Shown here: piece by piece, positions 43,157 to 64,000 of the stretch
How the letters are laid out: each line of letters starts with the position of its first letter
Numbering within the stretch: position 1 is the first letter of the stretch
Source of the DNA: Longibacter salinarum
Lineage (GTDB): Bacteria > Bacteroidota > Rhodothermia > Rhodothermales > Salinibacteraceae
NCBI RefSeq assembly: GCF_002554795.1
Contig: NZ_PDEQ01000006.1
Span: 124,001-188,000 of the forward strand
DNA length: 64,000 nt
Reading direction: 5' to 3'
Made by a program: the position numbers and the translations under genes
Notes under the pieces: generated by a model
Seen by the model: the letters and a program-made list of their open reading frames with translations, nothing else
What the model was told of the DNA's origin: nothing
Database searches by the model: none

Positions 43157-44425
43157 ATGCCCTCAATATCGCACGACATTCTCCACCGATCTGGCTCCAT
43201 GAGTATGATGCAAGGAGACGGTGGTCCCGATGCGTCCACCGTGCTGCGGCCGGGACACGTTGGTTTAGTGCATGACTGGCTGCCGGTGTATGCGGGTGCC
43301 GAGCGTGTTTTAGAACAAATCATTCGTGCGTACCCCTCCTCAGATCTGTACAGTCTCATCGACTTTATCCCTGATGATCAACGTGACTTTTTGCAGGGGA
43401 AATCGGTTGAGACATCGTTCATTCAGCGCCTACCATTCTCCAAGTCAAAGTACCGCTACTACCTGCCGCTGGCACCGATGGCGATCGAGCAGTTCGACCT
43501 CACGGACTACGACGTCGTGGTCTCGTCTAGCTACGCTGTGGCAAAGGGGATCCTCACGAAGGCCGATCAGCTCCACGTCAGTTACGTGCACAGTCCGATC
43601 CGGTATGCCTGGGACCTCCACCATGATTACCTCCGCGAAAGTGGACTGACAAGCGGCATTCGCAGCATGTGTGCCCGTGCGATCCTTCACTACATTCGCC
43701 TCTACGACGCCATCGCGGCCAATCGTGTGGACGTCTTCCTCGCAAACTCCCAGCATGTAGCGCGCCGAATATGGAAGACGTATCGGCGCAAGGCGCAGGT
43801 CATCTACCCTCCGGTAGACGTTGATCGGTTCCAGCTTCAGGCGAAAAAGGAGGATTTCTACCTCACGATGTCCCGTCTCGTGCCATACAAGCGCATCGAT
43901 CTGATCGTCGAGGCCTTTACGGCCATGCCAGACAAGGAGCTCGTCGTCATTGGAGATGGTCCGGAGATGAAGAAGATCGAGAAGCTCGCCGGGCCCAACG
44001 TGACGCTTCTGGGTTATCAGCCAGATGAGGCGGTGGAGTACTACATGCAAAACGCCCGGGCCTTCGTCTTTGCCGCAGAAGAGGATTTCGGCATTGTACC
44101 CGTCGAAGCACAGGCCTGTGGAACACCTGTCATCGCGTACGGGCGGGGCGGTGCGCTGGAAACGATCGTGCCGGGACAAACGGGCATTTTCTTTCAGGAG
44201 CAAGACGTAGCTCATTTAAAAAACGCTATTGACGATTTTGAGGCGGTTGAAGATCGTCTTGATCCGGAAACCATCCGTGCAAATGCCGAGCGATTTTCGC
44301 CGCAGGTATTCCGCGACGCCTTCACGCGAGCAGTAAATCGAGCCTATGCCGAGTTCATCGACGATCACTTCGTGTCCAACGACCACGCAATGCGTACCGT
44401 GGCGCCGGAAGTCGTCGGATCGTGA
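43157..44425 (+). CDS. GT4-family glycosyltransferase, WbaZ-like
   Basis: 422 residues. The N-terminal Rossmann domain has VGLVHDWLPVYAGAERVLE and VVVSSSYAVAKGI with VSYVHSPIRYAWD; the C-terminal GT4 domain has MSRLVPYKRIDLIVEAF, VVIGDGPEM and the nucleotide-sugar site AEEDFGIVPVEAQACGTPVIA with the Glu pair. It transfers a sugar, mannose in the WbaZ relatives, to a polyprenyl-linked chain on the cytoplasmic face. In-frame Met codons at 43199 and just after are alternative starts. It opens the plus-strand polysaccharide set, with the sugar-phosphate transferase following. Confidence 0.92.
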   Translation: MPSISHDILHRSGSMSMMQGDGGPDASTVLRPGHVGLVHDWLPVYAGAERVLEQIIRAYPSSDLYSLIDFIPDDQRDFLQGKSVETSFIQRLPFSKSKYRYYLPLAPMAIEQFDLTDYDVVVSSSYAVAKGILTKADQLHVSYVHSPIRYAWDLHHDYLRESGLTSGIRSMCARAILHYIRLYDAIAANRVDVFLANSQHVARRIWKTYRRKAQVIYPPVDVDRFQLQAKKEDFYLTMSRLVPYKRIDLIVEAFTAMPDKELVVIGDGPEMKKIEKLAGPNVTLLGYQPDEAVEYYMQNARAFVFAAEEDFGIVPVEAQACGTPVIAYGRGGALETIVPGQTGIFFQEQDVAHLKNAIDDFEAVEDRLDPETIRANAERFSPQVFRDAFTRAVNRAYAEFIDDHFVSNDHAMRTVAPEVVGS

Positions 44426-44518
44426 GATCCGTTGCCGCATCGGCCCTTCGGTGGGTCATTCATCATCTGTTTCGCTTTCGACCTAGATCCTGTGGCTGCG
44501 ACTCTTCAGCATGATTCG

Positions 44519-45985
44519 ATGATCGGGCCTCCTGCGCCCGAGTTGACGATTGTCTCTCGTGCAGACGTCGCTTCGGCGTCCACACAGTCGTTAGAAGCCG
44601 TACATGCACGACGTGCACGCTGGATGACGCTCCTGGCTCTTGCTGTGACCGATTTCGTCGCGTTTGGGTCGGTTCTTGGGATCCTCGATCTGGCGGCCTA
44701 TGCCGTTGCCCCTGCGTACGCGAGCACGGTCTGGTCGGCGGCGGCTCTACTTCCTGTCATCCTCATTGCGTTCGTCTTTCTCGGGCTGTATCACCACACC
44801 CGAATGCATCCAGCAGATGAGATGCGGATGGCGAGTCAGGTGACGGTGACCATCGGCTTGACAGCGGCCATCGCTGTGTACGTGGGCGGCGGCAACTCCA
44901 TCGTGGCGATGACTATGGTGGCAGCTGCTCTGCTTGGGGCAGTTGTGGTCCCGCTTTGCCGGGGATTCTTCCGAGTCATTTGTGCACGGGCAGAGTGGTG
45001 GGGACAACCTGCCGTGGTCATCGGCGAGAAGGAGGAAGCATTGACGGTGACCGATACGCTGAAACGATGGCCGGAAATTGGGCTGCGTCCCGTTGCGCTT
45101 CTCACCGATCGACCTGTTGATACACCGATCTGGTCTGGCCCGAGCGGGACGGCCCTACATGTGGCCGCGAATCACGATATACCGTACGCGATTGTCGTCG
45201 AACCGAATCTCGACGCCGAAGAGCACGACCATCTTGTCGCACGCTACAGCAAGTTCTTCGACAACGTGCTCGTCGTCCCCGACGTGAAGAAGGGAGCCGC
45301 CGCGCTGTGGCGAACCGGACGCTCGCATCAGGGCCTTGTCGGGTACGGCGTGAGTCACTACGAATTGCAGGTCGGTGCGCGGTTCGCCAAGCGCATCATC
45401 GACATGATCGGTGCCCTGCTACTCACGATTGTATCGTTTCCCCTGCTTTTGACGATCGCCGTTCTGATCAAGATCGACTCCCCCGGGGGCGTGTTCTACA
45501 GCCAGAACCGGATGGGACGCCAGGGCCGATGTTTCTCCGTGTTGAAATTTCGGACGATGCATGTGGATGCAGACGCCATCCTGGCCGACTTGCTCGATAA
45601 GGACCCCACGCTACGGGCCGAGTACGAGCAGTTTCACAAACTGCAGGAAGACCCGCGGGTGACCCGGATTGGGCGCGTGTTGCGTCGATACAGTCTGGAC
45701 GAGCTCCCGCAGCTTTTCAACGTGATCGCAGGAGATATGAGTCTCGTGGGGCCTCGCGCGTACATGCCGAGAGAACTTCCCAAGATGAAAAATCTCGCTC
45801 GCATCGTTCTTCAGACCCCACCGGGAATCACTGGGCTGTGGCAGGTTTCAGGTCGAAACGCTCTGAGCTTCGAGCGGCGCGTGGATTTGGATGTGCACTA
45901 CTTCAAGAACTGGTCGCCATGGCTTGACCTCTACCTGCTCATTCGCACCGTGCCCGTGGTCCTTTCGGGCGAGGGCGCATCTTGA
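44519..45985 (+). CDS. Polyprenyl-phosphate hexose-1-phosphate transferase (WbaP/WcaJ type)
   Basis: 488 residues from the ATG at 44519 ([10 protein letters not shown]); the frame starts at 44432, overlapping nothing. Four or five N-terminal membrane helices (about 35-165), a nucleotide-sugar-like CoA-binding_3 domain (about 165-280), a further membrane re-entrant helix ([19 protein letters not shown]), and the catalytic domain with [38 protein letters not shown] and [11 protein letters not shown]. It starts repeat-unit assembly by moving sugar-1-phosphate from a UDP-sugar to undecaprenyl phosphate, made by UppS. The KFRTM and LDELPQ motifs are diagnostic. Confidence 0.95.
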
Positions 45986-46072
45986 CTCAGCGTTCGGGTG
46001 CAGAACGCGGTTATAGAGAACCTCAACACTCCTTCTTTCGGTACGCCCCATCATTGCAACACCCCCAGACCC

Positions 46073-48496
46073 ATGAATGACAAGAATCTGAGTCGCTTTG
46101 ACAGCGGCGACATGACGCCGGCTCCGCTTCGAAACGGGCACGCGAGTAATCGGATGAACGGTTCGGCCCACCATGGTGGCGGTTCGTCTGGCTCTTCGTC
46201 AGAAGCCAATGCAGGAATTGATGTCGCGGAAATTCTGGATATGCTCCGTCGCGGCAAGTGGATTATCGCTGCCACGACGATTGTTGTGGTTGCACTGGTC
46301 GGAGCGTACACCTACACGGTCGACCCTGTGTACGAGGCGAAGAGTATCGTGAAGATCGATTTAGGTGCACAATCCGGGCCTGGAGGGATGGGGGCCTTCG
46401 GGCAGCAGCGTGATCTGGCGAGTGAAGTCGGCGTTCTTCAGTATTCCGCTGAACTCGCCTCCCGGGTCGTTGCTGAGTTACGTGCGACCGAGTCCGCTCT
46501 CGAGGAAAAAGGAAAGTTTCCTCTATTATACGGCGAGGACGGTCAAGCGAGGTCAACCAATGAAGTGATGTCTCACATGATGCAACGTGTGAGTTTCGTT
46601 CCCATGCAGAGCCAGAGCATGATCCAGTTCACCGTGGAAAGCGGTGTCCCGGAAGAAGCGTCCACGGTAGCGAATCTGTATTCTTCGCAGTACGAAATCT
46701 TTAGCCGAGAGAAAGCGAGAGCGAGCGTTACGGCGGCGCGCGATTTCCTGGAAACGCAGGCGGAGAAACGCCGCGAGGAGATTCGAGAACTGGAGCAACA
46801 ATGGGAAACCTTTGCACAGAATAATCAGGTGGTCACGCAGGGGATCGGCGGTGAGCGACTCGTGGCGGAATATACCGAATTGACTGCACGACGTGACGCT
46901 CTTCGATTTGAGTTAGAGCAAGAGGAAGAAGCCCTTCGCCTCCTCCGCGATCAGTTAGCTCAGTTCGAGCCGGGTCTTCGTGAAACGGTTCAACAGGAAC
47001 AAGAAGCAAGCGGGCTACGAAGCGAGATTAGCGTTCTGGAGCGTAAGATCGGTGAAATGAGGGCAGAAGCTGCTCAATACTACGTTGCCAATGATGGGCT
47101 CGAAGGGGATACCGACCGCATCGAGACTGAATTTCCTCAGCTTGCTGATTTGCTTGAGCGGATTAATGGGCTTGAGAAGCGCAAGCGTTCGCTAACGAAT
47201 CAACTTGTTGCAGAGGCTACGCAGAGCTCGGGACTTCCGGGAGCAACGGCCGGGAATGACTCCCAGATGGGGACCAGTGCCTTAAACCGCATCATGCAGC
47301 TTAAAACCCGGATCACAGAGCAAGAAATCCGAATCGGTCAGATTGAGGCGCAAATTGCCGGTTTAGAAAGCGCCATACAAAGCTATGAGCCGCGATTGAA
47401 CCGAATTCCGCAGCAAACGATTCAGCGGGAGCAAATCGATCGTAAGCTACAGCAGGCCGAACGTTTTTATCAGTCCATAACGTCCGAACTTCAGAAAACC
47501 ATCATTGCTGAAGAGTCAGAACTTGGATACGTGGAGACGGTCCGAAAGGCGTTCGTGCCGTCGATTCCTGTGAAACCGAACGTTCAACAAAACCTGCTTC
47601 TCGGTTTGCTTCTCGGCGTCGGTTTCGGCATCGGACTGGCCTTTCTCCGTTTAGCATCCAACTCGCGAATTTATCGTCCGGACGACCTTCTTCGGAACGG
47701 CTATCGCGTAACCGGCGTCGTTCCCAAAATGGATAACGAAATCAAAAAAGAATTTCGAGGTCGTGATACCGTCGAGATTGAAGGACACGAGTTGTCCACG
47801 CGGCTTCTTCCTATTCTGAGTCCGTGGTCACCCGTGACTGAGAACTACCGATTGATTCGGACGAACATGCAGTATGCCGGATCCGGTCAATCGTATGGCG
47901 AACCGCCACAAACGATTCTTGTGACCAGTCCGGAGCCGGGAGACGGAAAGACGACAACAGCCATAAATCTCGCGCTGACCTTTGTGTTGAGTGGGAAGAA
48001 AGTGCTTTTGATCGACGCCGATATGCGTCGTCCGACAGCTCATAAGCTACTTGGAATGGAGCGATCTCCCGGTCTTGCAGAGATGCTCCGCGGGGATGAC
48101 AAGGTTCAGGTTGTCCGTCGAACCTATGTCGATGGTCTCTACTTCGTGCCAGCAGGAAAAGCAGAGGATCCACCAACCGAAGCGCTAGATTCGGTCCGGA
48201 TGGACAAGCTCATCGAACTAGGCAAGTCCAGGTGCGATATCGTCATTATTGACACTCCGCCGGTTTTAGCAGCGAGTGATCCACTGGTTCTGGCACCACG
48301 AGCAGACGCGACCCTGGTTGTAACGTCGGCAAACTCAACCGATGTGGACTCGCTCGATCTGACGCGTGACATGTTGGAAGGGGTTGGGGTTTCGATAAGC
48401 GGTGTCATATTTAACCGCTTTGACGACGCCAAGGCGTCCGGTTCGAATTATAAGTACGGATATTATCACAGCGACAACTATCGCATGGTGTCATAA
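46073..48496 (+). CDS. Wzc-like polysaccharide co-polymerase with BY-type tyrosine kinase
   Basis: 807 residues from the ATG at 46073. A Wzz domain with first membrane helix at about 63-82, a long periplasmic coiled coil (about 190-500), a second helix at about 506-530 (LLLGLLLGVGFGIGLAFL), then a cytoplasmic kinase with Walker A SPEPGDGKTTTAINLA at about 617-632, Walker A' LLIDADMRRPTAHKLLG, Walker B VIIDTPPVL and a tyrosine cluster at the very end (NYKYGYYHSDNY). Phosphorylation of that cluster regulates chain length and export of capsule or exopolysaccharide. No Wza exporter or tyrosine phosphatase lies in the window. The convergent T9SS gene begins 52 bp past its stop. Confidence 0.95.
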   Translation: MNDKNLSRFDSGDMTPAPLRNGHASNRMNGSAHHGGGSSGSSSEANAGIDVAEILDMLRRGKWIIAATTIVVVALVGAYTYTVDPVYEAKSIVKIDLGAQSGPGGMGAFGQQRDLASEVGVLQYSAELASRVVAELRATESALEEKGKFPLLYGEDGQARSTNEVMSHMMQRVSFVPMQSQSMIQFTVESGVPEEASTVANLYSSQYEIFSREKARASVTAARDFLETQAEKRREEIRELEQQWETFAQNNQVVTQGIGGERLVAEYTELTARRDALRFELEQEEEALRLLRDQLAQFEPGLRETVQQEQEASGLRSEISVLERKIGEMRAEAAQYYVANDGLEGDTDRIETEFPQLADLLERINGLEKRKRSLTNQLVAEATQSSGLPGATAGNDSQMGTSALNRIMQLKTRITEQEIRIGQIEAQIAGLESAIQSYEPRLNRIPQQTIQREQIDRKLQQAERFYQSITSELQKTIIAEESELGYVETVRKAFVPSIPVKPNVQQNLLLGLLLGVGFGIGLAFLRLASNSRIYRPDDLLRNGYRVTGVVPKMDNEIKKEFRGRDTVEIEGHELSTRLLPILSPWSPVTENYRLIRTNMQYAGSGQSYGEPPQTILVTSPEPGDGKTTTAINLALTFVLSGKKVLLIDADMRRPTAHKLLGMERSPGLAEMLRGDDKVQVVRRTYVDGLYFVPAGKAEDPPTEALDSVRMDKLIELGKSRCDIVIIDTPPVLAASDPLVLAPRADATLVVTSANSTDVDSLDLTRDMLEGVGVSISGVIFNRFDDAKASGSNYKYGYYHSDNYRMVS

Positions 48497-52700: not shown

Positions 52701-53325
52701 ACCAGGAGGCCGGATCGTCCCATGTAAATGTCGTCGAGCCGAGACGACTCTGAGTACCCGCACGCACGTCGAGATCGAGAATCCGGTATCCGCTAGAGTA
52801 CCCCTCTGTGCCATTGAATCGAAACTCGATCGTGTTTTGGCCCGATGTCCAGGAGCCGGACTCGGTTGCATCTACCGCTATGCGCATGGTCTTATTCGAA
52901 AGTGGGCCGTCCATGCAGCCAAATTCACTTTCTGGAGAATCACACGTTATGCGCTCCTTTGTCATGCCAACCCACGGTCCGCCGTTGATTCGGAAGCTGG
53001 CCTTCTGGTCGTACCGCTCGCCTCCGTTCGTGACATGTGGGTCGGTACCGTTTTCAGCCCACTCGCTCCAGTGATAGGCGAGATTGTGAACCTCGAGATG
53101 CAGGTTGTCCACTCCGCTTGCATCAGAGACATCGACATTCACAGAGACCGTGTGGCCTTTGTCGCCGATGACCTCAAGTGGGAGTTGGACCGATCCACTG
53201 CTTGCGGTTTGGAACGTAGAGTAGGCTCCCGCCACGAAAATGGCAGCAACACAGAGAAAGAAGAGGGATAAGGTCGACCAGAGGCTAGACTGCTTGTTCT
53301 GGTCGTCCCGATGGGGGTAAGGCAT
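49792..53325 (-). CDS. Very large T9SS cargo protein with a c-type haem motif
   Basis: 1177 residues. Signal peptide or anchor at about 15-35; beta-sandwich-like region (about 45-190); a cytochrome-c-like part with the haem site C245-A-D-C248-H249 and FHGLTDKEGRQIASYIRS; a long helical central region (about 400-780) rich in Trp and Asn; two tandem repeats that begin GWNIVSSSIAP (about 807) and GWNLVAYWPDG (about 890), each about 80 residues; a linker; and a T9SS type A sorting domain (about 1090-1177) with NPVQGSATIEF and DVLGRRVATLVDEL. One haem is therefore carried on a protein exported to the surface. No known enzyme motif is visible in the middle. Several Trp residues next to Asp (WPDIFEWWPDVHP) could be a ligand site. 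Function unknown. Confidence 0.85.
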   Translation of the reverse strand: MPYPHRDDQNKQSSLWSTLSLFFLCVAAIFVAGAYSTFQTASSGSVQLPLEVIGDKGHTVSVNVDVSDASGVDNLHLEVHNLAYHWSEWAENGTDPHVTNGGERYDQKASFRINGGPWVGMTKERITCDSPESEFGCMDGPLSNKTMRIAVDATESGSWTSGQNTIEFRFNGTEGYSSGYRILDLDVRAGTQSRLGSTTFTWDDPASWSPPYSSSSDISKGKELWHARGILVESPLDGKPITASCADCHARDGRDLKYFNFSNKSIVARSTFHGLTDKEGRQIASYIRSVDLELPSGYDVSDAGRPWNPPYQPGPGLDERPVELWAAGAGIDCVVDRDEDSAPFLFPSDGSETVLRNADHDPDRGVDCNKLADQISMTSDQSKMFAMAHTDSTMNNREVPVQVQWPDIFEWWPDVHPVDIWDVSTVENQDWYKNYLSIHDDLETSREQMIATARDNVGERRGGNTTRLDRRISKLLDRWNNWDPPVDASFSTEFEKRYSTRQFLSMKLWEIMHEHKLEGLGAEIYGPEGQPDRLAWGPEAGSLPNGIFAGGQDRVWFNNANVYDTSPHKNQRKCCGAGGGTPQYGQGAGTHRNARSRNYWGDIWYDLALTLAPGNRLATGNNPYDWNYNSMHIQSTSEYNSNQGVRYFRHYISAIQQFNRFYQPDSDIKAERKGSWPWSIHGHSLQKLEVWEVQNMLTSMNSNLRNRFTEAAIDSWIKQNNEWAVSDWRRDDKGNSRIPDQTYKPQKVNSIKWSANRADMFYSMMHLWSGRNLDGRVLDRAARWGEKMWPNGDWEQWFVEQSSSDMSLNSGWNIVSSSIAPDDASMETVFGSIVSDVVLVKNEVGETYIPDYGINTIGSWSSDEAYKVYLTKDSKLSMNGSVLDPTAPIKLEQGWNLVAYWPDGSMSAEEAFSSISSELVIVKDYAGDAYIPSENLNTLDAGSGLVRPGQGYQIYVDNATTLTYPSSKAAYAKTSSAKARRGHAVTATAIVESPSMSDGTSLLAKTAKGRIVGKGIVSDGRGIVRLWGDDPQTTPVDGATSGERLSIYVGSETGESLDVQKVEDMLSDRPISKIAFQENAVLKLVAGDQNTELLLRGIAPNPVQGSATIEFVLPKQERVSLEVYDVLGRRVATLVDELRRAGEHKVRMDASRLDSGPYFYRLRAGSTTLTKKMTVVR

Positions 53326-54161: not shown

Positions 54162-55337
54162 CTACACGTGGGGCTCGTGGGACGCATGATCGGCGTGCGT
54201 CTGCCGTAACACGTCGTGGAGGCGGTGCGTCATCTGCTTGACGGAAAACCGGTGTCGTGCAACCTCCCGCCCTCGGCGGGCGATGATCGTGCTTTCCCGG
54301 CCATTCTCGAAAATCTGCTCGAGAACGGATGCGAGTGATTGCGCGTCGCCGGGTTCGGCGAAGTACCCCGTTCTGCGATGATCTATGATTTCCTTGACGC
54401 CTCCCGCACGGGAGGCAACGACGGGTCGGTTCGCGAGCATTCCCTCTACCACCACCCGACCGAAGGGCTCGGGAGCGGTTGACGCGTGGACGACGGCGTC
54501 GACTTCCTGCATTAGACGAGGGATGTCGTCGCGAAAGCCGAGAAAATGGACGCGATCAGCGACGTCACGCTTTTCGCATCGATCCCGGATTTCGTCCGCG
54601 TATGCGACATCGTCGGGAAATAAGGCGTCACCTACAACGAGGGCATGCACCGTTGGCAACGATGCCAGCGCATCGATGAGAACGTGCTGTCCCTTCCAGG
54701 GAGCGAGTCGGCTGAAGATTCCGACAAGAGGGGTGTCTCCGAGGTTCAACTCCCGTCGAATCGACCCATTTTGAGAGGAGGTGGATGCGTGGGAGTGCTC
54801 CTCAATGCCATTGTACACGACCTCGGTGGGTCGGCGGCCCCCACTGGACCGGTAGGCGGCTTCCGTTGCCTGCGAATTGACGACGACACGGTCGACGAAT
54901 GCATTCGACATTCGCGTCGCCAGAAAACGATTGGTACGACTAAAATGGTCGTTCGATAGGATGTCGTGCAAGCTCCATATTGCGGGGCGATTTGCAAGCC
55001 AGCTTGCAAGAGCACCGATGAGCATGGCTTTTTGAGAGTTCAGAAAGACAACGTCGTAGTCGCGAGCGACGCGAGATACGTTTGCGATCATACGAGTAAG
55101 CCCAGGGATCGCGGCGATCGCGTCGCAAGCGGTGGCAGTTTTCTGAACCCGTAGCACGGATGCGGGGGCTTCGACCACGCGGACATCATGTCCCTGTGCG
55201 TGAAGACGTTCTACAAGCGGGCCGCGTTCAAACGTCAAGACGGTGGAGTCAGGCGTGGCGCGGACCAGGTCCAACAGATATAACTCAGCGCCACCGAGTG
55301 AGCCCGTGTGGTCGATAAAAAGGGTGCGCGGCAACAT
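54162..55337 (-). CDS. GT4-family glycosyltransferase
   Basis: 391 residues. N-terminal LFIDHTGSLGGAELYLLDLV, acceptor domain with VVFLNSQKAMLIGAL, and a C-terminal domain with GIFSRLAPWKGQHVLIDAL, VHFLGFRDDIPRLMQEVDAVVH and PEPFGRVVVEGMLANRPVVAS. GT4 enzymes transfer a sugar from a nucleotide donor and retain its anomeric form. It is the last gene of the minus-strand operon, 29 bp behind the next glycosyltransferase. Confidence 0.92.
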   Translation of the reverse strand: MLPRTLFIDHTGSLGGAELYLLDLVRATPDSTVLTFERGPLVERLHAQGHDVRVVEAPASVLRVQKTATACDAIAAIPGLTRMIANVSRVARDYDVVFLNSQKAMLIGALASWLANRPAIWSLHDILSNDHFSRTNRFLATRMSNAFVDRVVVNSQATEAAYRSSGGRRPTEVVYNGIEEHSHASTSSQNGSIRRELNLGDTPLVGIFSRLAPWKGQHVLIDALASLPTVHALVVGDALFPDDVAYADEIRDRCEKRDVADRVHFLGFRDDIPRLMQEVDAVVHASTAPEPFGRVVVEGMLANRPVVASRAGGVKEIIDHRRTGYFAEPGDAQSLASVLEQIFENGRESTIIARRGREVARHRFSVKQMTHRLHDVLRQTHADHASHEPHV

Positions 55338-55366: not shown

Positions 55367-56539
55367 TCAGTGCAGCGCGGCTGGGGCACGTCGATCGGAT
55401 GTTCGCGCATAGAGGTCTCGTGTTTTGCGTGCGATCACGGACCAGTCGAAATGTTCTGCGGCATGGTTTCTACATGTTGCCCCGTCGGGGAGCACACGGT
55501 CGCCATTGAGTGCCTCTAGCAGCCCTCGTGCGATGGATGGGACCTCTGCCCGATCCAGGACGAGATCATCGCTCAACCCTGACACGATGGATGGGAGTCC
55601 TCCCACCGGAGTCGCCAGCACAGGTGTGCCGGCTGCCAGGGACTCGACTGCAGAGAGCCCGAAACCTTCTAATGCGACGGTAGGCATGACCGAAGCCGTT
55701 GCGGCGCGGTAGGTTAGTGCGAGGTCCTCGTCTGGGACGAAGCCGAGAAATCGTACGTGATCGTTGAGGCCGGCATTGGCGACGTCCTCTTCCAAATGAG
55801 GTCGAAGTGGACCCGTACCTGCGATCATGAGCATCACGTCGGGACATACCTGCCGGACGCGATCTAGGGCAGCAATTAGTTGTTCGAGGCCGACGCGGCG
55901 GACGAGGCGGCGCACCGACAAGAAAATCGGACGATCGGTCGGCCACCCTAGCAGCTGTCGAGCGTCGGTGCGGGAAATGTGAGTTCGATCAAATGCACCG
56001 ACGTCAACACCCCCTGGTATGATGCTGATACGATCCGGCGGAACGCCGTAATCGCTGCTCAGGATATCCCGAAACGCCTCCGATAGGACAACGAATCGGT
56101 CCGCCCGGTTGTACACGAGTCGCTCGATGTGCGACTTGAGGGTGACCTTGAGACGAGACTCGCCCTCCATCAGCGATTCGCGCGCCCACGGGCCGTGGAA
56201 ATGGACGATCGTGGGGTAACCGCGAATTAAGTCGAGAACGGGGAGCGTATAGAGGGCAAAATGCGTGGTTACGACATCAGGGTCGACTTCCTGGATTGTC
56301 GACTGAACGTGATTTCGGATCGCGCGCCAACGCGTGGTCAGCGACGCCTTCTCATCTGCGACCCCGTGAAGTCCCCTAATCGGAGATCGTTGCTTCCCTG
56401 ACCCGTCTACCACGAGTCCATGCACGTACGCATCTGTCGCTGGTAGGTGATGTTGTAGGGCCTCAAACACACGATCGGACCCGCCTCCGGATGACGGGGA
56501 GAATCGTGTCTTGCCAATTTGATAAATGTGTATTGACAT
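55367..56539 (-). CDS. GT4-family glycosyltransferase
   Basis: 390 residues from the ATG at 56539 (MSIHIYQIGKTRFSPSSGGG); an in-frame ATG at 56554 adds five residues. Features: VVTTHFALYTLPVLDLIRG, VSVRRLVRRVGLEQLIAALD, ARFLGFVPDEDL-like segment HVRFLGFVPDEDLALTYRAA, and VALEGFGLSAVESLAAGTPVLA with the nucleotide-sugar-binding Glu. Operon neighbours are a sulfotransferase 28 bp upstream and another glycosyltransferase downstream. Confidence 0.92.
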   Translation of the reverse strand: MSIHIYQIGKTRFSPSSGGGSDRVFEALQHHLPATDAYVHGLVVDGSGKQRSPIRGLHGVADEKASLTTRWRAIRNHVQSTIQEVDPDVVTTHFALYTLPVLDLIRGYPTIVHFHGPWARESLMEGESRLKVTLKSHIERLVYNRADRFVVLSEAFRDILSSDYGVPPDRISIIPGGVDVGAFDRTHISRTDARQLLGWPTDRPIFLSVRRLVRRVGLEQLIAALDRVRQVCPDVMLMIAGTGPLRPHLEEDVANAGLNDHVRFLGFVPDEDLALTYRAATASVMPTVALEGFGLSAVESLAAGTPVLATPVGGLPSIVSGLSDDLVLDRAEVPSIARGLLEALNGDRVLPDGATCRNHAAEHFDWSVIARKTRDLYARTSDRRAPAALH

Positions 56540-56567
56540 GGAGTCGTGTCGCATAGAGGGGAATCAC

Positions 56568-57524
56568 TCAGGCAGCTTCTGGTAGAGCGGCCTGATGAGA
56601 CGTTGGGACGACGTTGTATCCGTATCGAAGCAGAAATGGCAGTGTGAGTGCCGTAACGAGTACCTTATGTATCCCCGCCATGTTAACCCTCCATGCAGCA
56701 TCTTCTCGGATACGGGTCACACCAGATTTTGCGCGACCTGGGTTGCCCCAGATCGTATGATTCGTTCCAAGCGTTATCTCGCGCTGTCCGTGAAATGGAC
56801 TCCCCGGAAAGGGGAGGCCAAGTGCTCGGACGGTGGACTCCAACATTCGCGCGGGGTTGGCGCAGAAATCTTCATACCGTAGGCGAATATTCGGAACGTC
56901 GTGTCGACGCAGTAACTGCTCCAGCGTCAGATTACACGCGACGTATCTTCGACAGCTGCCGACCGGAGAGAGCGTGGGCATGTAGAGGTCTTCCTGTGGT
57001 GCCACGTCCGTTCGCTTTTTCTTTTTTGACCATGAGTTTGCATTGCCCCTGGGATCGCGAACAAGATGCAAGACTCGAGTGTCGAGATTTGTGGCGCTCA
57101 GCAAGAGATACAGGTGTGACGGCGTTTTTGACATGTCGACGATCACCTCGGCTCCCGATACCGTTGCTACTTCTTCGTAGATCGCCTGGATGGCCGCACC
57201 GTATTCTTTCAGTACATCCTGCTTGGTCGGCGCAAGACCGGCAGCGATCTCAATGTTTGAGGGGAGGGCCTTTCGCTGTCGTATCAGGTCATCGACTGGC
57301 ACAGCGTCCACAGAACCATATAGCGAGCGAAACACCGGCCCCCAGAGTGCGCATGACGATATTTTCTCTCCGCACCCGCATGCATGGCCTCCGACGAAGA
57401 TATTCTCCCACGCATAATTAGCCTCCCCGATGTTCACGTAGCTGGTGATCTCGTTGAGGCAGTTGGCGAGGATGGTGCTACCACTTCGCCCACGACCCGC
57501 GATGTAGAGTACTTTGGTCTTCAT
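56568..57524 (-). CDS. PAPS-dependent sulfotransferase
   Basis: 318 residues. The 5'-phosphosulfate loop GRGRSGSTILANCL at about 10-23 and the 3'-phosphate site LHLVRDPRGNANSWSKKKK at about 158-175 define the sulfotransferase fold. It would move sulfate from PAPS to a hydroxyl, most likely on the growing polysaccharide, given that its start overlaps the end of a glycosyltransferase gene (ATGA overlap at 57521-57524). Cysteines in ACGCGEKISSCALWG are close together and could bind a metal or form a disulfide. Enzyme class is firm, substrate inferred. Confidence 0.9.
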   Translation of the reverse strand: MKTKVLYIAGRGRSGSTILANCLNEITSYVNIGEANYAWENIFVGGHACGCGEKISSCALWGPVFRSLYGSVDAVPVDDLIRQRKALPSNIEIAAGLAPTKQDVLKEYGAAIQAIYEEVATVSGAEVIVDMSKTPSHLYLLLSATNLDTRVLHLVRDPRGNANSWSKKKKRTDVAPQEDLYMPTLSPVGSCRRYVACNLTLEQLLRRHDVPNIRLRYEDFCANPARMLESTVRALGLPFPGSPFHGQREITLGTNHTIWGNPGRAKSGVTRIREDAAWRVNMAGIHKVLVTALTLPFLLRYGYNVVPTSHQAALPEAA

Positions 57525-58732
57525 GCCGTTTCTGCTGAAGAGGATTTCGAGGACGTGGTAGAATGACCGGGTGAGCCGCTGTCAGGGGCCTCGGTGGCCA
57601 ACACACGATGTAAGGTCGACACGAATCTGTTCGCGAGGACCTCGTCGGTGTGCGTACGGAGCACGTGTTGACGACCTGTTTCTGCAAAGCGTCGGCGCTT
57701 GTCCGGATGCTGGGCCATGAATCTCAGTGCGTTGGAGAGTGCGGTTGAGTTGCCTTCCTCGAAGGAGATTCCACCACCGGACCGTCGAATAACATGCGGG
57801 ATTTCCCCAGAGTCGGATCCGATCAATGCAGTCCCGCAGGCGAGGGCTTCAATCAGGACACGGCCGAATTGCTCTTTCCAGTTCGCTTGGGTCTCGGATG
57901 GAAGTACGAGAACGTCAAACAAAGAGAGGTAGTCGGGGGCCTCTTCGTGCGGAACATATCCTGTAAAGCGAAGCCGATCCCCAATGCCCAAAGACTCAGC
58001 ACGGGAACGAAGGACCTCGGCATAATCTCCATTTCCTACGACCACGAAGCGCCATGGAATGTCGCGCATGGACGACAGCGCGTCGAGCGCCGTATCGAGA
58101 CCCTTCACTTGGCTTACGCGGCCCATGAACCCAATGACGATCTCATCGCTCCCGACATTTAGATTGGCTTTAAGCTCGTCGTTCGATTCCCGTGGGTAGT
58201 ATGCCGATTGATCCACACTACCCGGCAGTAGCACACACGGACCGTCATATCCTTTTGCTCGAAGGATCTCTGTAGCGCTGTCGGAGCCGGCAAATGCAAA
58301 GGCGCTTTCTCGAAGTACCATGCGTTCGGTTTGGGCGAAGGGCGGCGGATAAGTTTTCTGAATATTTTGCCAGGTAAAAAAGCCGATCGGGCAATCGTGC
58401 CACAACCGATTTGCCTGGTAGACCTGAGCGGTAGCGGCGCCGTATGGTTCGTGGCGCACGTAAATCACATCGGGCTTGTCTCGCTTTAGGATGTGCCGAA
58501 AGGTGGTACGGTAGACGTGGAGAGGGACGCTGCCATTCATCCAGACAGGTATCGCTTCAAGACGCCCCCGAAATGCGGGCCATCGTTCGAGAGAGCGCTG
58601 GTTTCCGTAATCGTCAACCCACATGGATGGAGAGACGAGCGTGATATCAACGTCTGAGACCCGTTCGACGACGCTGTAGAACTGCTGATTGGTAGGTGTC
58701 GCGCAGTCGTGGCTTACGACGAGAAGTTTCAT
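57521..58732 (-). CDS. GT4-family glycosyltransferase
   Basis: 403 residues from the ATG at 58732 (MKLLVVSHDCATPTNQQF), where the family begins. VIYVRHEPYGAATAQVYQAN, IGFMGRVSQVKGLDTALDAL, RLRFTGYVPHEEAPDYLSLFDVLVLPSE and EQFGRVLIEALACGTALIGSD are typical. Its last four bases overlap the sulfotransferase start (translational coupling). It is 32 bp behind a second sulfotransferase gene. Confidence 0.92.
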   Translation of the reverse strand: MKLLVVSHDCATPTNQQFYSVVERVSDVDITLVSPSMWVDDYGNQRSLERWPAFRGRLEAIPVWMNGSVPLHVYRTTFRHILKRDKPDVIYVRHEPYGAATAQVYQANRLWHDCPIGFFTWQNIQKTYPPPFAQTERMVLRESAFAFAGSDSATEILRAKGYDGPCVLLPGSVDQSAYYPRESNDELKANLNVGSDEIVIGFMGRVSQVKGLDTALDALSSMRDIPWRFVVVGNGDYAEVLRSRAESLGIGDRLRFTGYVPHEEAPDYLSLFDVLVLPSETQANWKEQFGRVLIEALACGTALIGSDSGEIPHVIRRSGGGISFEEGNSTALSNALRFMAQHPDKRRRFAETGRQHVLRTHTDEVLANRFVSTLHRVLATEAPDSGSPGHSTTSSKSSSAETA

Positions 58733-58763
58733 CTTGTACCGACGGGGGATTCCGAACAAAGAG

Positions 58764-59741
58764 TCAGGAAGGGGTTAAATCGCCTAGTTTAAAACTTTCG
58801 CGATCATAGATGCGAAGTGCTATCTCTGACGTGATCTCAAAAATATCGCGCCTTGTGTTGAGCGGGACAGAGTCACGCCGCATCTCGAAGATGCTCGCAC
58901 TGTCACGCTTAAAGTCCTGCACCCGACCATCCGAAGCGTACGCTTTCCCGTTGTTGGTCGTTAGCGATAGGATTTTCTTATGTACGCCATCAGACCAGGG
59001 GAGCCCGCACTCTCGATAGATTCGGCGAAAGACCCTCACCGGGTGTGAAGAGAGCTCTTCGTGTGTGACCACGATCCAGTCACCGTGTTTTTCAGCCTGA
59101 TCAAGCAACACGCGATAAAGCATGCGCCAGTGTGCCATAGACTCCAGCAGGCGATCCTCCCAGTTGGTGTGCAAGAGATGCAGGTCATCTTCTAGGTGGT
59201 TGGCGATAACGTCGGGTTGCAATGCGAAGTCGTACACTTCCGGAAACCATGATAATCGCTTCAAGCTGGCTGCAAGCGAAACCGGGTGACGGACGATCAC
59301 AACCGGCTTGACACCGAACTCTCGGTAGAGAAAGTCGGTCGTTAGGCCCGCCATCGGGTCTTTGATTAAAGCGTGACGCCGAAACCAATTTGCTTTAGCG
59401 AGTCGAAGGTAGAAGGGGCCGCGACTCCCGAAAAGTCTCTTCGCGACCTTTCGAGCGAGGGGGTCATCGTCGTATTTCGCAGACGACATCCCGATGTCGT
59501 ACGTAAAAATGTGTCGCACATGGTCGCGATATCGACGAGCGGCATGCGAATGGTCGTTTTTATCGACGTACCGAGCCTTGAGAGCAATCCCCTCGGGAAT
59601 CGTATAGCCTCCATTAAATGGCTCGTGGATGTAGTCGACGCTCACAGGGTGGCTCAGTACCGAGGCCAAAAATGTCGTGCCGCTACGGATCATGCCCGTA
59701 ACGAACACCCATGATTCGATCGATGTGGGGTCAATGGACAT
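58764..59741 (-). CDS. PAPS-dependent sulfotransferase, second of two
   Basis: 325 residues. 5'-PSB loop VTGMIRSGTTFLASVL at about 14-29 and 3'-phosphate site VVIVRHPVSLAASLKRL at about 145-162, with HEELSSHPVRVFRRIY following. It is not closely similar to the sulfotransferase at 56568, so the two probably modify different positions or sugars. It lies between two glycosyltransferase genes in the same operon. Confidence 0.9.
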   Translation of the reverse strand: MSIDPTSIESWVFVTGMIRSGTTFLASVLSHPVSVDYIHEPFNGGYTIPEGIALKARYVDKNDHSHAARRYRDHVRHIFTYDIGMSSAKYDDDPLARKVAKRLFGSRGPFYLRLAKANWFRRHALIKDPMAGLTTDFLYREFGVKPVVIVRHPVSLAASLKRLSWFPEVYDFALQPDVIANHLEDDLHLLHTNWEDRLLESMAHWRMLYRVLLDQAEKHGDWIVVTHEELSSHPVRVFRRIYRECGLPWSDGVHKKILSLTTNNGKAYASDGRVQDFKRDSASIFEMRRDSVPLNTRRDIFEITSEIALRIYDRESFKLGDLTPS

Positions 59742-59774: not shown

Positions 59775-60920
59775 CTAGACAAAGGACGGCTCGCATGAGG
59801 AGATGGACAGCGTATCGAAAAGAGATAAGTACTTCCGAGCCATCCCATTCCAAGAGTGGTTCTCGGCGATTCTTCGGGCCGCCCGGCTCATGGAGTCGGA
59901 GGTACGTGTTTCTGCAGCGAGCCGACGCAGTTCGACCGCAACGCGTGTCACGTCGTCGGGATCGTCAATCACGACGCCGGCTGACGACTGGACCAGCTCT
60001 GCGCCTCCGGCGGATTGAGCAGTCAGAATGGGGAGCCCCGAGCCAAGCGCCTCGAGGAGTACGAGCGAGCAGGCTTCGTAACGAGAAGGAAAGACGAAGA
60101 AGTCGGATGCACGCATCAGATCGGGGATGTCACTGCGAAACCCAAGGAAGTGTACGCGATCGGCAACGCCGATTTCTGAGCACATTTGTGGGAAGGGGCT
60201 TCCTTCGATTCGCCCGGCAACAGCGATGTGAATACCTTTCGCATCGGGAAGGGCCTTAATCACGGTGTCGAGCCCTTTCCTCGGCGTTCGAATATCACCG
60301 GCAAAAAGCCCTATGGGCACACCATCGGGTAAGCCCAACTGCTGCCGTGATGCAGGACCAGGATGAAATTCAGTTGCGTCGACACCGTTGTGGATGACCG
60401 ATATGTTCTCGGGGGGGCAGCCAACATGGATTAGTTCGCGTTTTACTTTCTCAGAGACCGCAACCAGCCGTCTTGCCCTCGGCAACACTCGCTGCTCAAT
60501 GTTCGCATTCACCTTCGAGTACACCCACTGATACATTCCCTTCACGTCGCGGCGAATTTTGGAATCATGAACGTTGGAGGTGCGCCAGGCAGAATGAACG
60601 AAGTGAATGATGTTGACGTCTACCGGTGCCCAGGTATTGGCGCCGTTCGCAACGATTAAATCGACGTCCTGTCCGTGTTCTTGTATCCACGATGTGCTCT
60701 CCTGGGCGAAGCGTAGATTTCCCAACAACGCATTAGGAGCGTTCGCGTCAGGCATCGGAACCCACTCCACATTCGGCTCCATCAGAAGTCGGTTGTCGAC
60801 GTCAGACGCCAAACATGTGATGGTATGTCCGTGTTGGGCGGAGAGGCGAGCGAGTTCTAAATTGACACGACCCTGTCCCTCACCCTTGATTAAGCGATTC
60901 GTGACAATCGTTATGTGCAT
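59775..60920 (-). CDS. GT4-family glycosyltransferase
   Basis: 381 residues. ITIVTNRLIKGEGQGRVNLELARL, RLVAVSEKVKRELIHVG, VIHNGVDATEFHPG, GLFAGDIRTPRKGLDTVIKAL, VHFLGFRSDIPDLMRASDFFVFPS and EACSLVLLEALGSGLPILTA. The FHFxxS-like GFRSDIPDLMRAS segment recurs in several glycosyltransferases of this operon. It is 33 bp behind the next gene on the left and 44 bp from the polymerase gene. Confidence 0.92.
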   Translation of the reverse strand: MHITIVTNRLIKGEGQGRVNLELARLSAQHGHTITCLASDVDNRLLMEPNVEWVPMPDANAPNALLGNLRFAQESTSWIQEHGQDVDLIVANGANTWAPVDVNIIHFVHSAWRTSNVHDSKIRRDVKGMYQWVYSKVNANIEQRVLPRARRLVAVSEKVKRELIHVGCPPENISVIHNGVDATEFHPGPASRQQLGLPDGVPIGLFAGDIRTPRKGLDTVIKALPDAKGIHIAVAGRIEGSPFPQMCSEIGVADRVHFLGFRSDIPDLMRASDFFVFPSRYEACSLVLLEALGSGLPILTAQSAGGAELVQSSAGVVIDDPDDVTRVAVELRRLAAETRTSDSMSRAARRIAENHSWNGMARKYLSLFDTLSISSCEPSFV

Positions 60921-60964: not shown

Positions 60965-62416
60965 CTATCGAGACTCGGCATTGTCCGTCTCGGACGTGCG
61001 ATCAAGGTGGTCGAGAGCGCCGATCGTCAGCCAGGTAAGCGGTGTCAATACATAGAACCCCGGCTTGAGCCACGATAAACCGGTAAAGGCTAGCATGCCG
61101 ACAAAGACGAGCCCGATAAGCGATCGCTCTCGTTGCCAATATCGGACGGCCTTGACGGCGACGAGGACTAGGATGCACAGGTAGAGGAAGCCTCCGATCA
61201 AACCGCCGCCCTTGAACATGTCTGAGAGGTCCTTTTCCGTGCTTCCGCCGCTGTCTCCGTACTTGGATGCGGCCAACGTCGTCGCGCCGATTCCTTTGCC
61301 GAGCGGATCTGTAAAGCCCGATTTGATCCCGATCCAGAACAAGTGACCATGGATCGCCACGGTCCCCCCAGCCCCAGGTGTCGTCGGAATGAGGTCGGAT
61401 TGCCGATCGAGAACCCGACTCACGCGCTGATGATCGATTGAGCCACTACTTGCCAGTTGGCCTGCCTGGCTCAATCCCCAGAAGAGGGCCATCCCGCCGA
61501 TCAGAACTGTAAAAGCAAGGCGTGGGGCCCACGTAGCGATGCTTCGTCCCTGGACTGTATATAGAATCGATATGGCGACGATGATCTTGGCGATCGGGCC
61601 GCGGCTCCCCGCTAGGAAGAGCGCCGCAAAGATCACGATGGAGAGAAGCAGAAGGCCGCGCTGCTTTTTAAAGGCGGCGGCACTTGCCACGACCACGACG
61701 ATTCCGATGTACTGGATGTATTCGCTGATGTTAGGGAATATTGAGATCGATCGGAGCATCTGTTCGTTTGGGCCCAGTGCACTGTATCCTGCGATCCGGT
61801 ACCAGTCGAGCTGGTATGGAAGCCAACCGTAGAACACCTGGTACAGGCCCATCAGAGCAGCAACGAGAGCAAGGGCAGGCATAATGCGCAAGAACCAGGT
61901 GCGCATCATTTGCTCTGTCGTAAACGCTTGTCCGATCCAGAACCAGAGCATCGGTACCAAATAAAGCATCGCGCCGGCGACCCCGACCATCAATCCTCCT
62001 TGCTTGGGGTTGAAGATCTGCAGCGTCATGAACACCATGAACAGGGCGATCACCTTCGCGGCCGTGGAGTCCAGCGAAACTCGTCTCCACATTACAGCGG
62101 CAATAAAAAGAATGAGCGTAAGCGCGGGACCGACGAGCAGAATCGGATCATTCCCTGACCACCCCGATATCGGCACGAGAAGACGGCGAAGGTCTCCGAG
62201 AAGTGTTAGGTAGATAAGCAGCGCGAGAATCGCGAGTCGCACGTTCTTGAGCGCGATTCCAAAAAGAATCAAACCGCATGTGCCTGCCACAACAAGGCGA
62301 ACGTGTCCTGCATCAATGAGCACTGTAATCGTCGCAGCGCCGAGAAACATAGCGACGACAATCGCAAGGCGTAGCCAGCGTTCGCGCGACATGGTGAGGG
62401 AGCTTAGCGTGGTCAT
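60965..62416 (-). CDS. O-antigen polymerase/ligase-like membrane protein (Wzy candidate)
   Basis: 483 residues with about eleven membrane helices and one larger periplasmic loop (about 330-395, GQLASSGSIDHQRVSRVLDR). The helix pattern, the NEQMLRSISIFPN segment and the FLAGSRGPIAKII motif before the last loop fit the Wzy/WaaL family that polymerises or ligates lipid-linked oligosaccharides. Motifs in this family are weak, so the exact activity is open, but a Wzy fits the Wzc gene at 46 kb. Its start overlaps the upstream glycosyltransferase stop by 4 bp (62413-62416). Confidence 0.82.
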   Translation of the reverse strand: MTTLSSLTMSRERWLRLAIVVAMFLGAATITVLIDAGHVRLVVAGTCGLILFGIALKNVRLAILALLIYLTLLGDLRRLLVPISGWSGNDPILLVGPALTLILFIAAVMWRRVSLDSTAAKVIALFMVFMTLQIFNPKQGGLMVGVAGAMLYLVPMLWFWIGQAFTTEQMMRTWFLRIMPALALVAALMGLYQVFYGWLPYQLDWYRIAGYSALGPNEQMLRSISIFPNISEYIQYIGIVVVVASAAAFKKQRGLLLLSIVIFAALFLAGSRGPIAKIIVAISILYTVQGRSIATWAPRLAFTVLIGGMALFWGLSQAGQLASSGSIDHQRVSRVLDRQSDLIPTTPGAGGTVAIHGHLFWIGIKSGFTDPLGKGIGATTLAASKYGDSGGSTEKDLSDMFKGGGLIGGFLYLCILVLVAVKAVRYWQRERSLIGLVFVGMLAFTGLSWLKPGFYVLTPLTWLTIGALDHLDRTSETDNAESR

Positions 62417-63579
62417 CGTGCTAGGGTAGGCCGAGGGGAGGGGACGTCAACGGCATCTGTCGTCTCAGCGATAAGCAACTCGTTGATTCTGGAGGCGAAG
62501 GCTTTCACGGAAAAGCTGCGGGCTCGAATCGCTGCATTGTGCGCAACGCGGTCCGAAAACTCTGCGTCGCCGAAGTACCGAACTATCGCTTTTGCCATGG
62601 CCTCAGCGTCACCATACGGCGTAAGAAGGCCGGTTTGGCCATGCTCGATGACTTCGGTCGGTCCGGCTGTATCGGAGGCAATAACCGGTCGAGCAGACGC
62701 CATGGCTTCGATCACGACAATGCCGAACGGCTCACGGTCTGATGCGTGGACGACGACATCGGCTGCGTGCATCCAGTCGCGAACGTTGGACTGAAATCCG
62801 ACCATGTGGATAGACTCCTCGAGGTTTCTCCGTTGAATCAGATCCTTGAGGTACTGCGGGTACTCCGGCTCTAGATCGTGCTTCCCTCCAACCACAATCC
62901 CTTGAACATCGGGATAGTCCTGCCGGACTTGATCGATACTCTCGATGAAAACATGCATGCCTTTCCAGCGCTGAAGCCGGCCGACGATAACAGCCGTTGG
63001 CGCAGTTTCGTCCAGTCCAAGGCGTCGTCGGATGGCGCTGCGGTGTTCAGGTCCAGGTGCAAAGTGTCTAACATCTGTCCCGGGGTGCACGACTGCGGTC
63101 CGACGGTGCGGGAAGAGAGCCGCCTGGGCTTTGGCGCCGGCGTTCGAACACGTCAGGACGCGACGGGCGGGAATGGCGGTTGCGAGTCGGTCCATCCAGT
63201 GGACATCCGCGGGCAAACCGAGCTGGAACCAGAAGGCGGGGCAGCCGAGCGTAAACGCTGCTGGACCTCCATACACGTGCCCCTTGCTCATCCAGCCGAG
63301 AATGCCCCGCGCTTGAACGTCTTTTCCAAGCTCAACGAGCTGGCGAATCGTCCGCCCATATGACATCACATGGCGGAGGCGTCCAGCAGGAAAAACGTGC
63401 GTATCGGACCACTCCGACCGGCACTCGTCCACCATGGGGCCATCTTCGAGGAAGACCACATGCCAGTGGATCGTTGTGGGAGCGGCTTCCGGCGGCGTGG
63501 TAACGAGTTGTTTAAGCATTAACTCCGCTCCGCCTCGCTGCTCCGCCAAAGGCATTACGACGATCACGTCTACTGTCAT
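62413..63579 (-). CDS. GT4-family glycosyltransferase
   Basis: 388 residues. VVMPLAEQRGGAELMLKQLV, VLTCSNAGAKAQAALF, VVHPGTDVRHFAPG, AVIVGRLQRWKGMHVFIESID, VHMVGFQSNVRDWMHAADVVVHASD-like stretch and REPFGIVVIEAMASARPVIAS. It is coupled by 4-bp overlaps to the polymerase downstream and the glycosyltransferase upstream, so these three are translated together. Confidence 0.92.
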   Translation of the reverse strand: MTVDVIVVMPLAEQRGGAELMLKQLVTTPPEAAPTTIHWHVVFLEDGPMVDECRSEWSDTHVFPAGRLRHVMSYGRTIRQLVELGKDVQARGILGWMSKGHVYGGPAAFTLGCPAFWFQLGLPADVHWMDRLATAIPARRVLTCSNAGAKAQAALFPHRRTAVVHPGTDVRHFAPGPEHRSAIRRRLGLDETAPTAVIVGRLQRWKGMHVFIESIDQVRQDYPDVQGIVVGGKHDLEPEYPQYLKDLIQRRNLEESIHMVGFQSNVRDWMHAADVVVHASDREPFGIVVIEAMASARPVIASDTAGPTEVIEHGQTGLLTPYGDAEAMAKAIVRYFGDAEFSDRVAHNAAIRARSFSVKAFASRINELLIAETTDAVDVPSPRPTLAR

Positions 63580-64000
63580 GGCAGGGAGGATTCGATGAGA
63601 GGGGAGGGTGTCGTGGCATCGTTTGGGTTTGTTGGAATCGCTCGTTCGAGTGAGTCCATGAAACGGGGGACTGTGATGCGAAAGTCGTACGTTTCATTGT
63701 ACAGCCGGCGTCCCGCTTGACCTATCGTTTTTCGTCGACGTGTGTCTTCATAAAGCTCGGATGCTCGGGCACCGAAAGACGCTGGATCGTCGGCGGGGGC
63801 GAGACAAAAGGCCGTTCCGTCAGCTTCAATCAGGGCTTGATCCGTGAGGTGGCCTCGAGTGCCCAGTGTTGGCACGGCGTGCTGGAGGCCGGCCATAAAT
63901 GATCCGCGTCTAGACGAGATGCCGTCCGGAAATGGCGTCAGATGAAGGTCCATGATCTGCAGGTGACGCGAAACGTCTTCGGCGGGAAGACGGCCGGCGT
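63576..64000 (-). CDS. GT4-family glycosyltransferase, C-terminal part (5' end outside window)
   Basis: The frame is open to the right edge (upstream codons read RLPAEDVSRHLQIMDL), so the Met at 63953 is internal. What is visible is the end of a GT4 domain: LHLTPFPDGISSRRGSFMAGLQHAVP, where the sugar-nucleotide site is expected, then AAGRRLY-like helices QAGRRLYNETYD and a polar tail. Overlaps the next gene by 4 bp. The EX7E motif is replaced by GISSRRGSFMAGL, so the donor site is unusual, as in related short-loop GT4 proteins. Confidence 0.75.
   Translation of the reverse strand, partial: AGRLPAEDVSRHLQIMDLHLTPFPDGISSRRGSFMAGLQHAVPTLGTRGHLTDQALIEADGTAFCLAPADDPASFGARASELYEDTRRRKTIGQAGRRLYNETYDFRITVPRFMDSLERAIPTNPNDATTPSPLIESSLP

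Follow-up and report, generated by a model that had tools for sequence, protein, structure and literature searches.

In a 64,000-nucleotide stretch of the genome of Longibacter salinarum (contig NZ_PDEQ01000006.1, positions 124,001 to 188,000; G000:C6:124001-188000 in our numbering), called the window below, two genes for sulfotransferases that use 3'-phosphoadenosine 5'-phosphosulfate (PAPS), ST-A and ST-B, stand inside an operon of glycosyltransferases, and the gene set as a whole quite probably makes a sulfated polysaccharide of the cell surface. An earlier note on this DNA had proposed two sulfotransferases and a sulfated exopolysaccharide: both genes are real, but the cluster contains four such genes, two of them (ST-C and ST-D) beyond the window edge. 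The proposal is supported in part: PAPS-type sulfotransferases do lie in a polysaccharide operon, the genome does encode PAPS synthesis, and in other genomes too such sulfotransferases are linked to genes for glycosyltransferases, an exporter and PAPS supply. The host, described as a member of the Bacteroidota, belongs in current NCBI taxonomy to the phylum Rhodothermota (via its relative Longimonas). The two genes of the window are:

56568..57524, minus strand: ST-A, PAPS-dependent sulfotransferase of family PF13469, 318 amino acids (from Pfam, a family profile and invariant residues)
58764..59741, minus strand: ST-B, PAPS-dependent sulfotransferase of family PF13469, 325 amino acids (from Pfam, an AlphaFold2 model and invariant residues)

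Both open reading frames (ORFs) lie exactly where two sulfotransferases with PAPS loops had been claimed, and both exceed the PF13469 cut-off of 27 bits, with 37.6 bits for ST-A (E 3.8e-9) and 58.8 bits for ST-B (E 1.2e-15). The 5' phosphosulfate loop reads GRGRSGST in ST-A and GMIRSGTT in ST-B, and the 3' phosphate loop RDPRGNANS and RHPVSLAAS, respectively. The two proteins differ in sequence, as had been said, to the point that blastp finds no match between them at E 1e-3. Loop residues are conserved within each family: S14, G15, T17, G33, E34 and S164 are invariant among 11 ST-A sequences, and R19, T23, H39, E40, K127 and S159 among 22 ST-B sequences. Both proteins share an invariant Glu placed 21 residues past the loop Arg, which the ST-A family profile pairs with a Glu in the solved sulfotransferase domains 4gox and 4gbm and which may be the catalytic residue. 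Chance ORFs and misread motifs were considered and are ruled out by the Pfam scores together with the residue conservation.

Searches of the sequences of solved structures gave nothing useful with single proteins as queries, and profiles did. The ST-A family profile matched the solved PAPS sulfotransferases 4gox (E 3.7e-21) and 4gbm (E 6.3e-20), the closest solved relatives of ST-A being polyketide sulfotransferase domains. ST-B is predicted to adopt a sulfotransferase fold: its AlphaFold2 model, built from 21 sequences, has a predicted local distance difference test score (pLDDT) of 87.0 and a predicted TM-score of 0.87, and Foldseek places first the tyrosylprotein sulfotransferases bound to 3'-phosphoadenosine 5'-phosphate (PAP), with E 1.1e-8. 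The alignment with TPST1 carrying PAP (5wrj_C) covers 231 residues at a VIA Z of 18.0 and a root-mean-square deviation of 3.5, whereas heparan sulfate 3-O-sulfotransferase and NDST1 give Z of about 12.5, and all 40 Foldseek matches listed (E <=0.001) are sulfotransferases or the retinol dehydratase of the same fold.

The polysaccharide operon spans C6:178162-203151, that is about 25 kb and 21 genes of the same strand, and extends 15 kb beyond the window edge. Since its intergenic gaps are all of 99 base pairs (bp) or less except two of 449 and 319 bp, it is presumably read as one or a few transcripts. Twelve of its products are glycosyltransferases (eight recognized by Pfam, four named by reading), beside the four sulfotransferases. 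Many belong to glycosyltransferase family 4 (GT4), and a divergent unit with priming and chain-length functions (43157-48496) lies about 6 kb from the operon end. The genes on which the argument draws are:

57521..58759, minus strand: GT4_57521, between ST-A and ST-B (PF00534, E 1.2e-36, and gene geometry)
55367..56554, minus strand: GT4_55367, conserved partner of ST-B (PF00534; counterparts near ST-B in Longimonas and cyanobacteria)
54162..55337, minus strand: GT4_54162, conserved partner of ST-B and last gene of the unit (PF00534; counterparts near ST-B in Longimonas and cyanobacteria)
59775..60920, minus strand: GT4_59775, upstream of ST-B (PF13439 and PF00534)
60965..62416, minus strand: candidate Wzy-like polymerase (10 hydrophobic segments; TIGR04370 below cut-off)
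62413..63579, minus strand: GT4 glycosyltransferase (PF00534, E 2.4e-40)
63576..64000, minus strand: GT4-like glycosyltransferase truncated at the window edge, complete at L002:1576-2772 (related proteins in the clusters of Longimonas, G010 and G052)
43157..44425, plus strand: GT4-like glycosyltransferase that opens the divergent unit (71% identical counterpart beside the WbaP and Wzc counterparts of the Longimonas cluster)
44432..45985, plus strand: WbaP-type priming sugar-phosphate transferase of the divergent unit (TIGR03022, 416.7 bits against a cut-off of 403; PF02397)
45998..48496, plus strand: Wzc-type chain-length protein and bacterial tyrosine kinase (BY-kinase) (TIGR01007, 138.7 bits against a cut-off of 108; Wzz and GNVR domains)
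L002:9514-10491, outside the window: ST-C (PF00685, E 3.2e-13)
L002:5038-5805, outside the window: ST-D (PF03567, E 2.7e-8)
L002:11674-13566 (C6:197674-199566), outside the window: HepA-type ATP-binding cassette (ABC) exporter (NF045513, 751.5 bits)

The close coupling of both sulfotransferases to GT4 genes, claimed at 35 bp or less, is borne out: GT4_57521 and ST-A overlap by 4 bp, ST-A is followed by GT4_55367 after 13 bp, GT4_59775 precedes ST-B by 33 bp, and between ST-B and GT4_57521 there are 4 bp from the TTG start or 31 bp from the ATG at residue 10. The WbaP/WcaJ-type transferase that had been announced is of the WbaP type by TIGR03022. Outside the window, the operon further contains a GT61, GT2 and GT4 enzymes, two epimerase-type enzymes and a small SLBB-like membrane protein, without Pfam match and named by reading, with relatives in the Longimonas locus and in a locus on contig C7. 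All four sulfotransferases are devoid of hydrophobic segments, which is consistent with cytosolic action with PAPS. One may ask whether such islands are decaying or silent, no sulfated polymer being made: surface loci of the related Salinibacter ruber are variable (PMC6060240), and the GC content of ST-A (0.552) and ST-B (0.533) is somewhat below the 0.582 of the window's first 43 kb. All reading frames are nonetheless intact, as are the PAPS loops, and the genes are tightly packed, so that this explanation is scarcely credible.

A supply of PAPS is encoded in the same genome, where the earlier note had suggested looking for it. APS kinase (for adenosine 5'-phosphosulfate, APS) has a single match, which forms the C-terminal end of a fusion with CysN (PRK05506, 925 bits versus 715) encoded after cysD. 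This cysD-cysNC pair belongs to the second polysaccharide locus of the genome, on contig C2, where about 13 kb separate it from a sulfotransferase gene; the locus also encodes UDP-glucose dehydrogenase, nucleotide-sugar enzymes, an SLBB-type export protein (by reading) and a flippase. The assimilatory reductase (L017:4658-5536) has CC and CxxC cysteines, a pattern that we take to mark APS-type reductases; if this is right, assimilation would proceed without need for PAPS, which is probably free for sulfation. CysQ, the PAP phosphatase, has genome matches only below the curated cut-off, and a search for PF00884 sulfatases gave none in this genome, against 10 of 14 control genomes that have one. 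Pfam supports 11 sulfotransferase ORFs in the genome (one each on C1, C2 and C4, four on C6 and four on C7), and ten of them stand in loci with glycosyltransferases or flippases, the exception, from a reading of its neighbours, being that on C4. The four on C7 belong to a third polysaccharide locus (L020 and L021, C7:142001-176000) with a pyruvyl transferase and an ABC transporter, where a fifth candidate, recognized by motif only, was noticed at L020:720-1478.

The link between sulfotransferases and PAPS genes was followed in 60 genomes of the host's order, its own included. APS kinase is present in 49 of them and PF13469 in 52, and APS kinase lies within 25 kb of listed sulfotransferases in at least 12 of 51 places. 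Among the 43 genomes of good quality the two coincide: 35 have both and six neither, while one has the sulfotransferase only and one the kinase only (Fisher p 7.9e-6). The relative G041 provides an example: there the gene for an ATP sulfurylase/APS kinase fusion precedes that of the ST-A relative, and the locus further encodes a flippase, a transporter, sugar-nucleotide enzymes and another sulfotransferase.

At E <=1e-10, ST-B is found in 6 and ST-A in 14 of the 60 genomes (own included in both), and ST-B is absent at this threshold from genus g8, which has many genomes and may be Salinibacter. The cluster of Longimonas halophila (G003) keeps the divergent GT4-WbaP-Wzc unit, the pair of genes for type IX secretion system (T9SS) cargo beside it, ST-B, an ST-A-like protein, ST-C, GT4_54162, GT4_55367 and the HepA-type ABC protein, while another relative, G052, keeps several GT4s, an epimerase, ST-A and the Wzy candidate (38% identical). 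A scan of public genomes with ST-B gave 26 loci. Their neighbourhoods were scanned for 18 (L058, L059 and L068 being examined via L048, L045 and L049, and L069, L072, L076, L077 and L078 left out), and a tree was built from 19 of them with the window and L047 (leaving out L066, L069, L072, L074, L076, L077 and L078). One clade of this tree (support 100/99) unites the window, three other sequences of the Rhodothermota order and nine from cyanobacteria; the latter group together (94/98), and the topology accommodates transfer in either direction.

Seven of the 13 clade members have counterparts of both GT4_55367 and GT4_54162 close to ST-B, the best of 10 GT4 queries scoring at least 2.4 times as many bits as the runner-up, and four cyanobacterial loci (L054, L060, L061 and L064) keep the order ST-B, 55367, 54162. 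The pair is absent on the longer stretches of L047 and L056, and L057 has one of the two partners; absence in L053, L055, L057 and L065 is weak evidence because these contigs stop close to ST-B. From these gene orders, the linkage of ST-B to the two GT4 genes is conserved across phyla. A plasmid search with ST-B returned 2 of 72,556 records, none of them cyanobacterial, and on pSymB of S. meliloti an ST-A relative stands in a locus with Wzz, an O-antigen ligase, glycosyltransferases and a second sulfotransferase. Two further loci may be mentioned: L066, where a contig with the label Candidatus Gracilibacteria encodes ST-B at 46-47% identity, a bin label that may be wrong since the start of an adjacent ORF resembles that of one on the Hydrococcus contig L055, and L080 of the actinomycete Nonomuraea gerenzanensis (NZ_LT559118), where about 2 kb separate relatives of ST-A (35%) and ST-B (30%) and the record gives no annotation for their neighbours.

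The ABC protein of the cluster reaches 751.5 bits against NF045513 (HepA), above the curated cut-off of 725, in a family named for heterocyst formation and envelope exopolysaccharide and found here outside cyanobacteria; the ST-B locus of Pleurocapsa (L056) also has a HepA-type protein (938 bits). HepA-type exporters occur at E <=1e-150 in 18 of the 60 order genomes, 17 of them over the cut-off. At least 13 of 19 such places lie within 10 kb of a listed sulfotransferase, versus 0.94 expected under random scatter, a naive null, since exporter and sulfotransferase genes alike serve polysaccharide synthesis and each of several related genomes counts separately.

Several observations weigh against the reading as a sulfated-polysaccharide locus. 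The PAPS genes cysNDC are not in the C6 cluster with ST-A and ST-B but on another contig, and the curated hidden Markov models for CysH are undecided between APS and PAPS reductase. The co-occurrence of PF13469 with APS kinase is weaker over all 60 genomes (47 with both, 5 with sulfotransferase only, 2 with kinase only and 6 with neither; p 2e-4) than over the 43 of good quality, and these p-values ignore shared ancestry, the six double negatives representing four genera, with three of the six in one genus. The Wzy candidate of the earlier note stays one: it does have 10 hydrophobic segments, but it scores 24.2 bits of the 40 required by TIGR04370 and has no Pfam match, so that the call draws on hydropathy and a match below cut-off. 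No Wzx flippase was found among the 21 operon and three divergent-unit proteins: all of them have fewer than five hydrophobic segments except WbaP, the ABC protein and the Wzy candidate, and the ABC protein seems to take the place of Wzx. The ST-A model, from four sequences, is poor (pLDDT 59.8), for which reason the fold of ST-A rests on the profile match, even if Foldseek on this model ranks sulfotransferases at the top and adenylate kinases lower. Finally, the closest solved folds to ST-B are protein-tyrosine sulfotransferases, and sulfotransferase folds also serve lipids, peptides and small molecules.

These last points, with the polyketide domains nearest to ST-A, are what speaks for a different substrate, the enzymes acting on a small metabolite, a lipid or a protein and owing their place in the operon to chance. 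The fold searches, however, list sulfotransferases of many functions and therefore show fold, not substrate. Four sulfotransferases of three Pfam families in a single glycosyltransferase operon, the company of glycosyltransferases or flippases for 10 of the 11 in the genome and the ST-B/GT4 linkage across phyla all go against such a coincidence, which we hold to be very improbable.

What the analysis shows are the genes with their motifs, a predicted ST-B fold, the gene linkage and its conservation, and the presence of PAPS pathway genes. For a sulfated polysaccharide, we infer the substrate, the order of steps, the number of sulfates and the extracellular fate as follows. WbaP (44432) would prime undecaprenyl phosphate with a sugar phosphate, and the GT4, GT2 and GT61 enzymes would extend the repeat unit at the cytoplasmic face. 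Acting on a chain that has not yet grown long or left its lipid carrier, the soluble ST-A and ST-B would move sulfate from PAPS, supplied by CysD-CysNC of the second polysaccharide locus, onto hydroxyls of defined sugars, and ST-C and ST-D would very likely do likewise. The lipid-linked product would then be flipped or exported by the HepA-type ABC transporter, and polymerized and set in length by the Wzy-like protein and Wzc. From its conserved neighbours, ST-B probably sulfates a sugar that the enzymes GT4_55367 and GT4_54162 add to the chain, or a sugar adjacent to it, and at least two sulfated positions in the repeat unit are plausible. The same enzymology could end on another anchor, giving a sulfated O-antigen or capsule instead of a released exopolysaccharide. 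A Wzy-like protein and WbaP are, as is known of these families, common to both fates, and the sulfotransferases and glycosyltransferases of genomic islands in Salinibacter ruber are placed in the O-antigen cluster (PMC6060240). We nevertheless consider this outcome unlikely, given the Wzc-type BY-kinase encoded beside WbaP and an exporter whose family is named for an envelope exopolysaccharide system.

Loci of this kind have precedents. Synechan of Synechocystis PCC 6803, the product of xss and the best-studied case of a sulfated exopolysaccharide locus in bacteria, has about two sulfates per eight sugars, and deletion of xssE, one of its two sulfotransferase genes, did not substantially alter exopolysaccharide accumulation or bloom formation (PMC8205485). 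Like the host cluster, xss is a large glycosyltransferase cluster with at least two sulfotransferases of distinct subfamilies, a Wzy candidate, a polysaccharide co-polymerase and a priming transferase; it differs in having two sulfotransferases versus four and Wzx versus the HepA-type ABC protein (PMC8205485). By blastp with proteins from the xss DNA (NC_005229), XssA is nearest to a C7 sulfotransferase of the host (23%) and XssE to one of the Longimonas cluster (29%), ST-A and ST-B being absent from the three best matches of either; this ranking rules out membership of the xss family by orthology. The ST-A family profile finds XssE (E 5.2e-17) about as well as the C1 sulfotransferase of the host (E 8.4e-16).

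The sulfated capsule of Vibrio sp. KMM 8419, whose structure was established by chemical and spectroscopic methods, comes from a locus with PAPS genes and sulfotransferases, a combination named as a hallmark when found in one polysaccharide locus (PMC11641403). It shares with the host polysaccharide genes, several sulfotransferases, cysNDC and ABC-type export, but the export is of the KpsT type, whereas the host has Wzc, WbaP and a HepA-type ABC protein and keeps its PAPS genes in another locus (PMC11641403). In Salinibacter ruber, a related halophile, variable islands also have sulfotransferases alongside glycosyltransferases, and strains differ in sulfonated extracellular metabolites; the portions available name no sulfated polymer for these islands (PMC6060240, PMC3669384). 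The wps-1 locus of Actinoplanes missouriensis, of Wzx/Wzy type with two sulfotransferases, is predicted to make a sulfated polysaccharide that was not chemically verified, and is unlike the host's in belonging to an actinomycete, having Wzx and using sulfotransferases of other InterPro families (PMC13390465). Kiritimatiellae with sulfated exopolymers are a further precedent (PMC7356697).

With these precedents the idea is not new in kind. Sulfated-polysaccharide clusters are already known, even if two reports state that bacterial sulfated polysaccharides had been reported exclusively in cyanobacteria (PMC8205485, PMC13390465), and such polymers were for a long time regarded as peculiar to cyanobacteria, algae and animals. 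This locus differs from the known ones in its host group, in having four sulfotransferases, in its exporter of the HepA type and in the ST-B/GT4 module that it shares with cyanobacteria. We found no chemically shown sulfated exopolysaccharide from Rhodothermota in the open-licence PubMed Central literature. In a study of Shark Bay mats, all Bacteroidetes genomes were scored without a sulfotransferase gene and the group appeared as degraders. PF13469 is present in most genomes of the order (52/60), and the host combines a full gene set for a sulfated polymer with no PF00884 sulfatase found. If our reading is true, halophilic Rhodothermota would be producers of sulfated glycans, the ST-B/GT4 module would assign definite genes to a shared sulfated motif, and the small set of bacterial polysaccharide sulfotransferases would gain new members.

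A wider reading is put forward only tentatively, as we lean against it: Rhodothermota and mat-forming cyanobacteria may share a transferable module of ST-B and two GT4s, often accompanied in Rhodothermota by an exporter of the HepA type, and may use it to make one and the same sulfated saccharide motif; outside heterocystous cyanobacteria, such exporters may mainly export sulfated polymers. If so, several loci with ten sulfotransferases would give a heavily sulfated cell surface, as a trait of hypersaline life and not of cyanobacteria alone.

Some neighbouring genes deserve a word. Between the WbaP/Wzc unit and the operon lie two T9SS-sorted proteins on the minus strand (49792-53325 and 48549-49673), the larger with one CxxCH motif, and their counterparts at the same spot of the Longimonas cluster are 30% and 31% identical. 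Upstream of the operon on C6 (L002:17418-20000 and L003:1-4593), reading indicates one or more very long, secreted-looking repeat proteins with a C-terminal sorting-like tail. The Longimonas cluster, which has several sulfotransferases, also encodes a GT47 exostosin-domain protein (L046:1496-2473; PF03016, E 1.3e-16) that recalls heparan sulfate polymerases by family name only.

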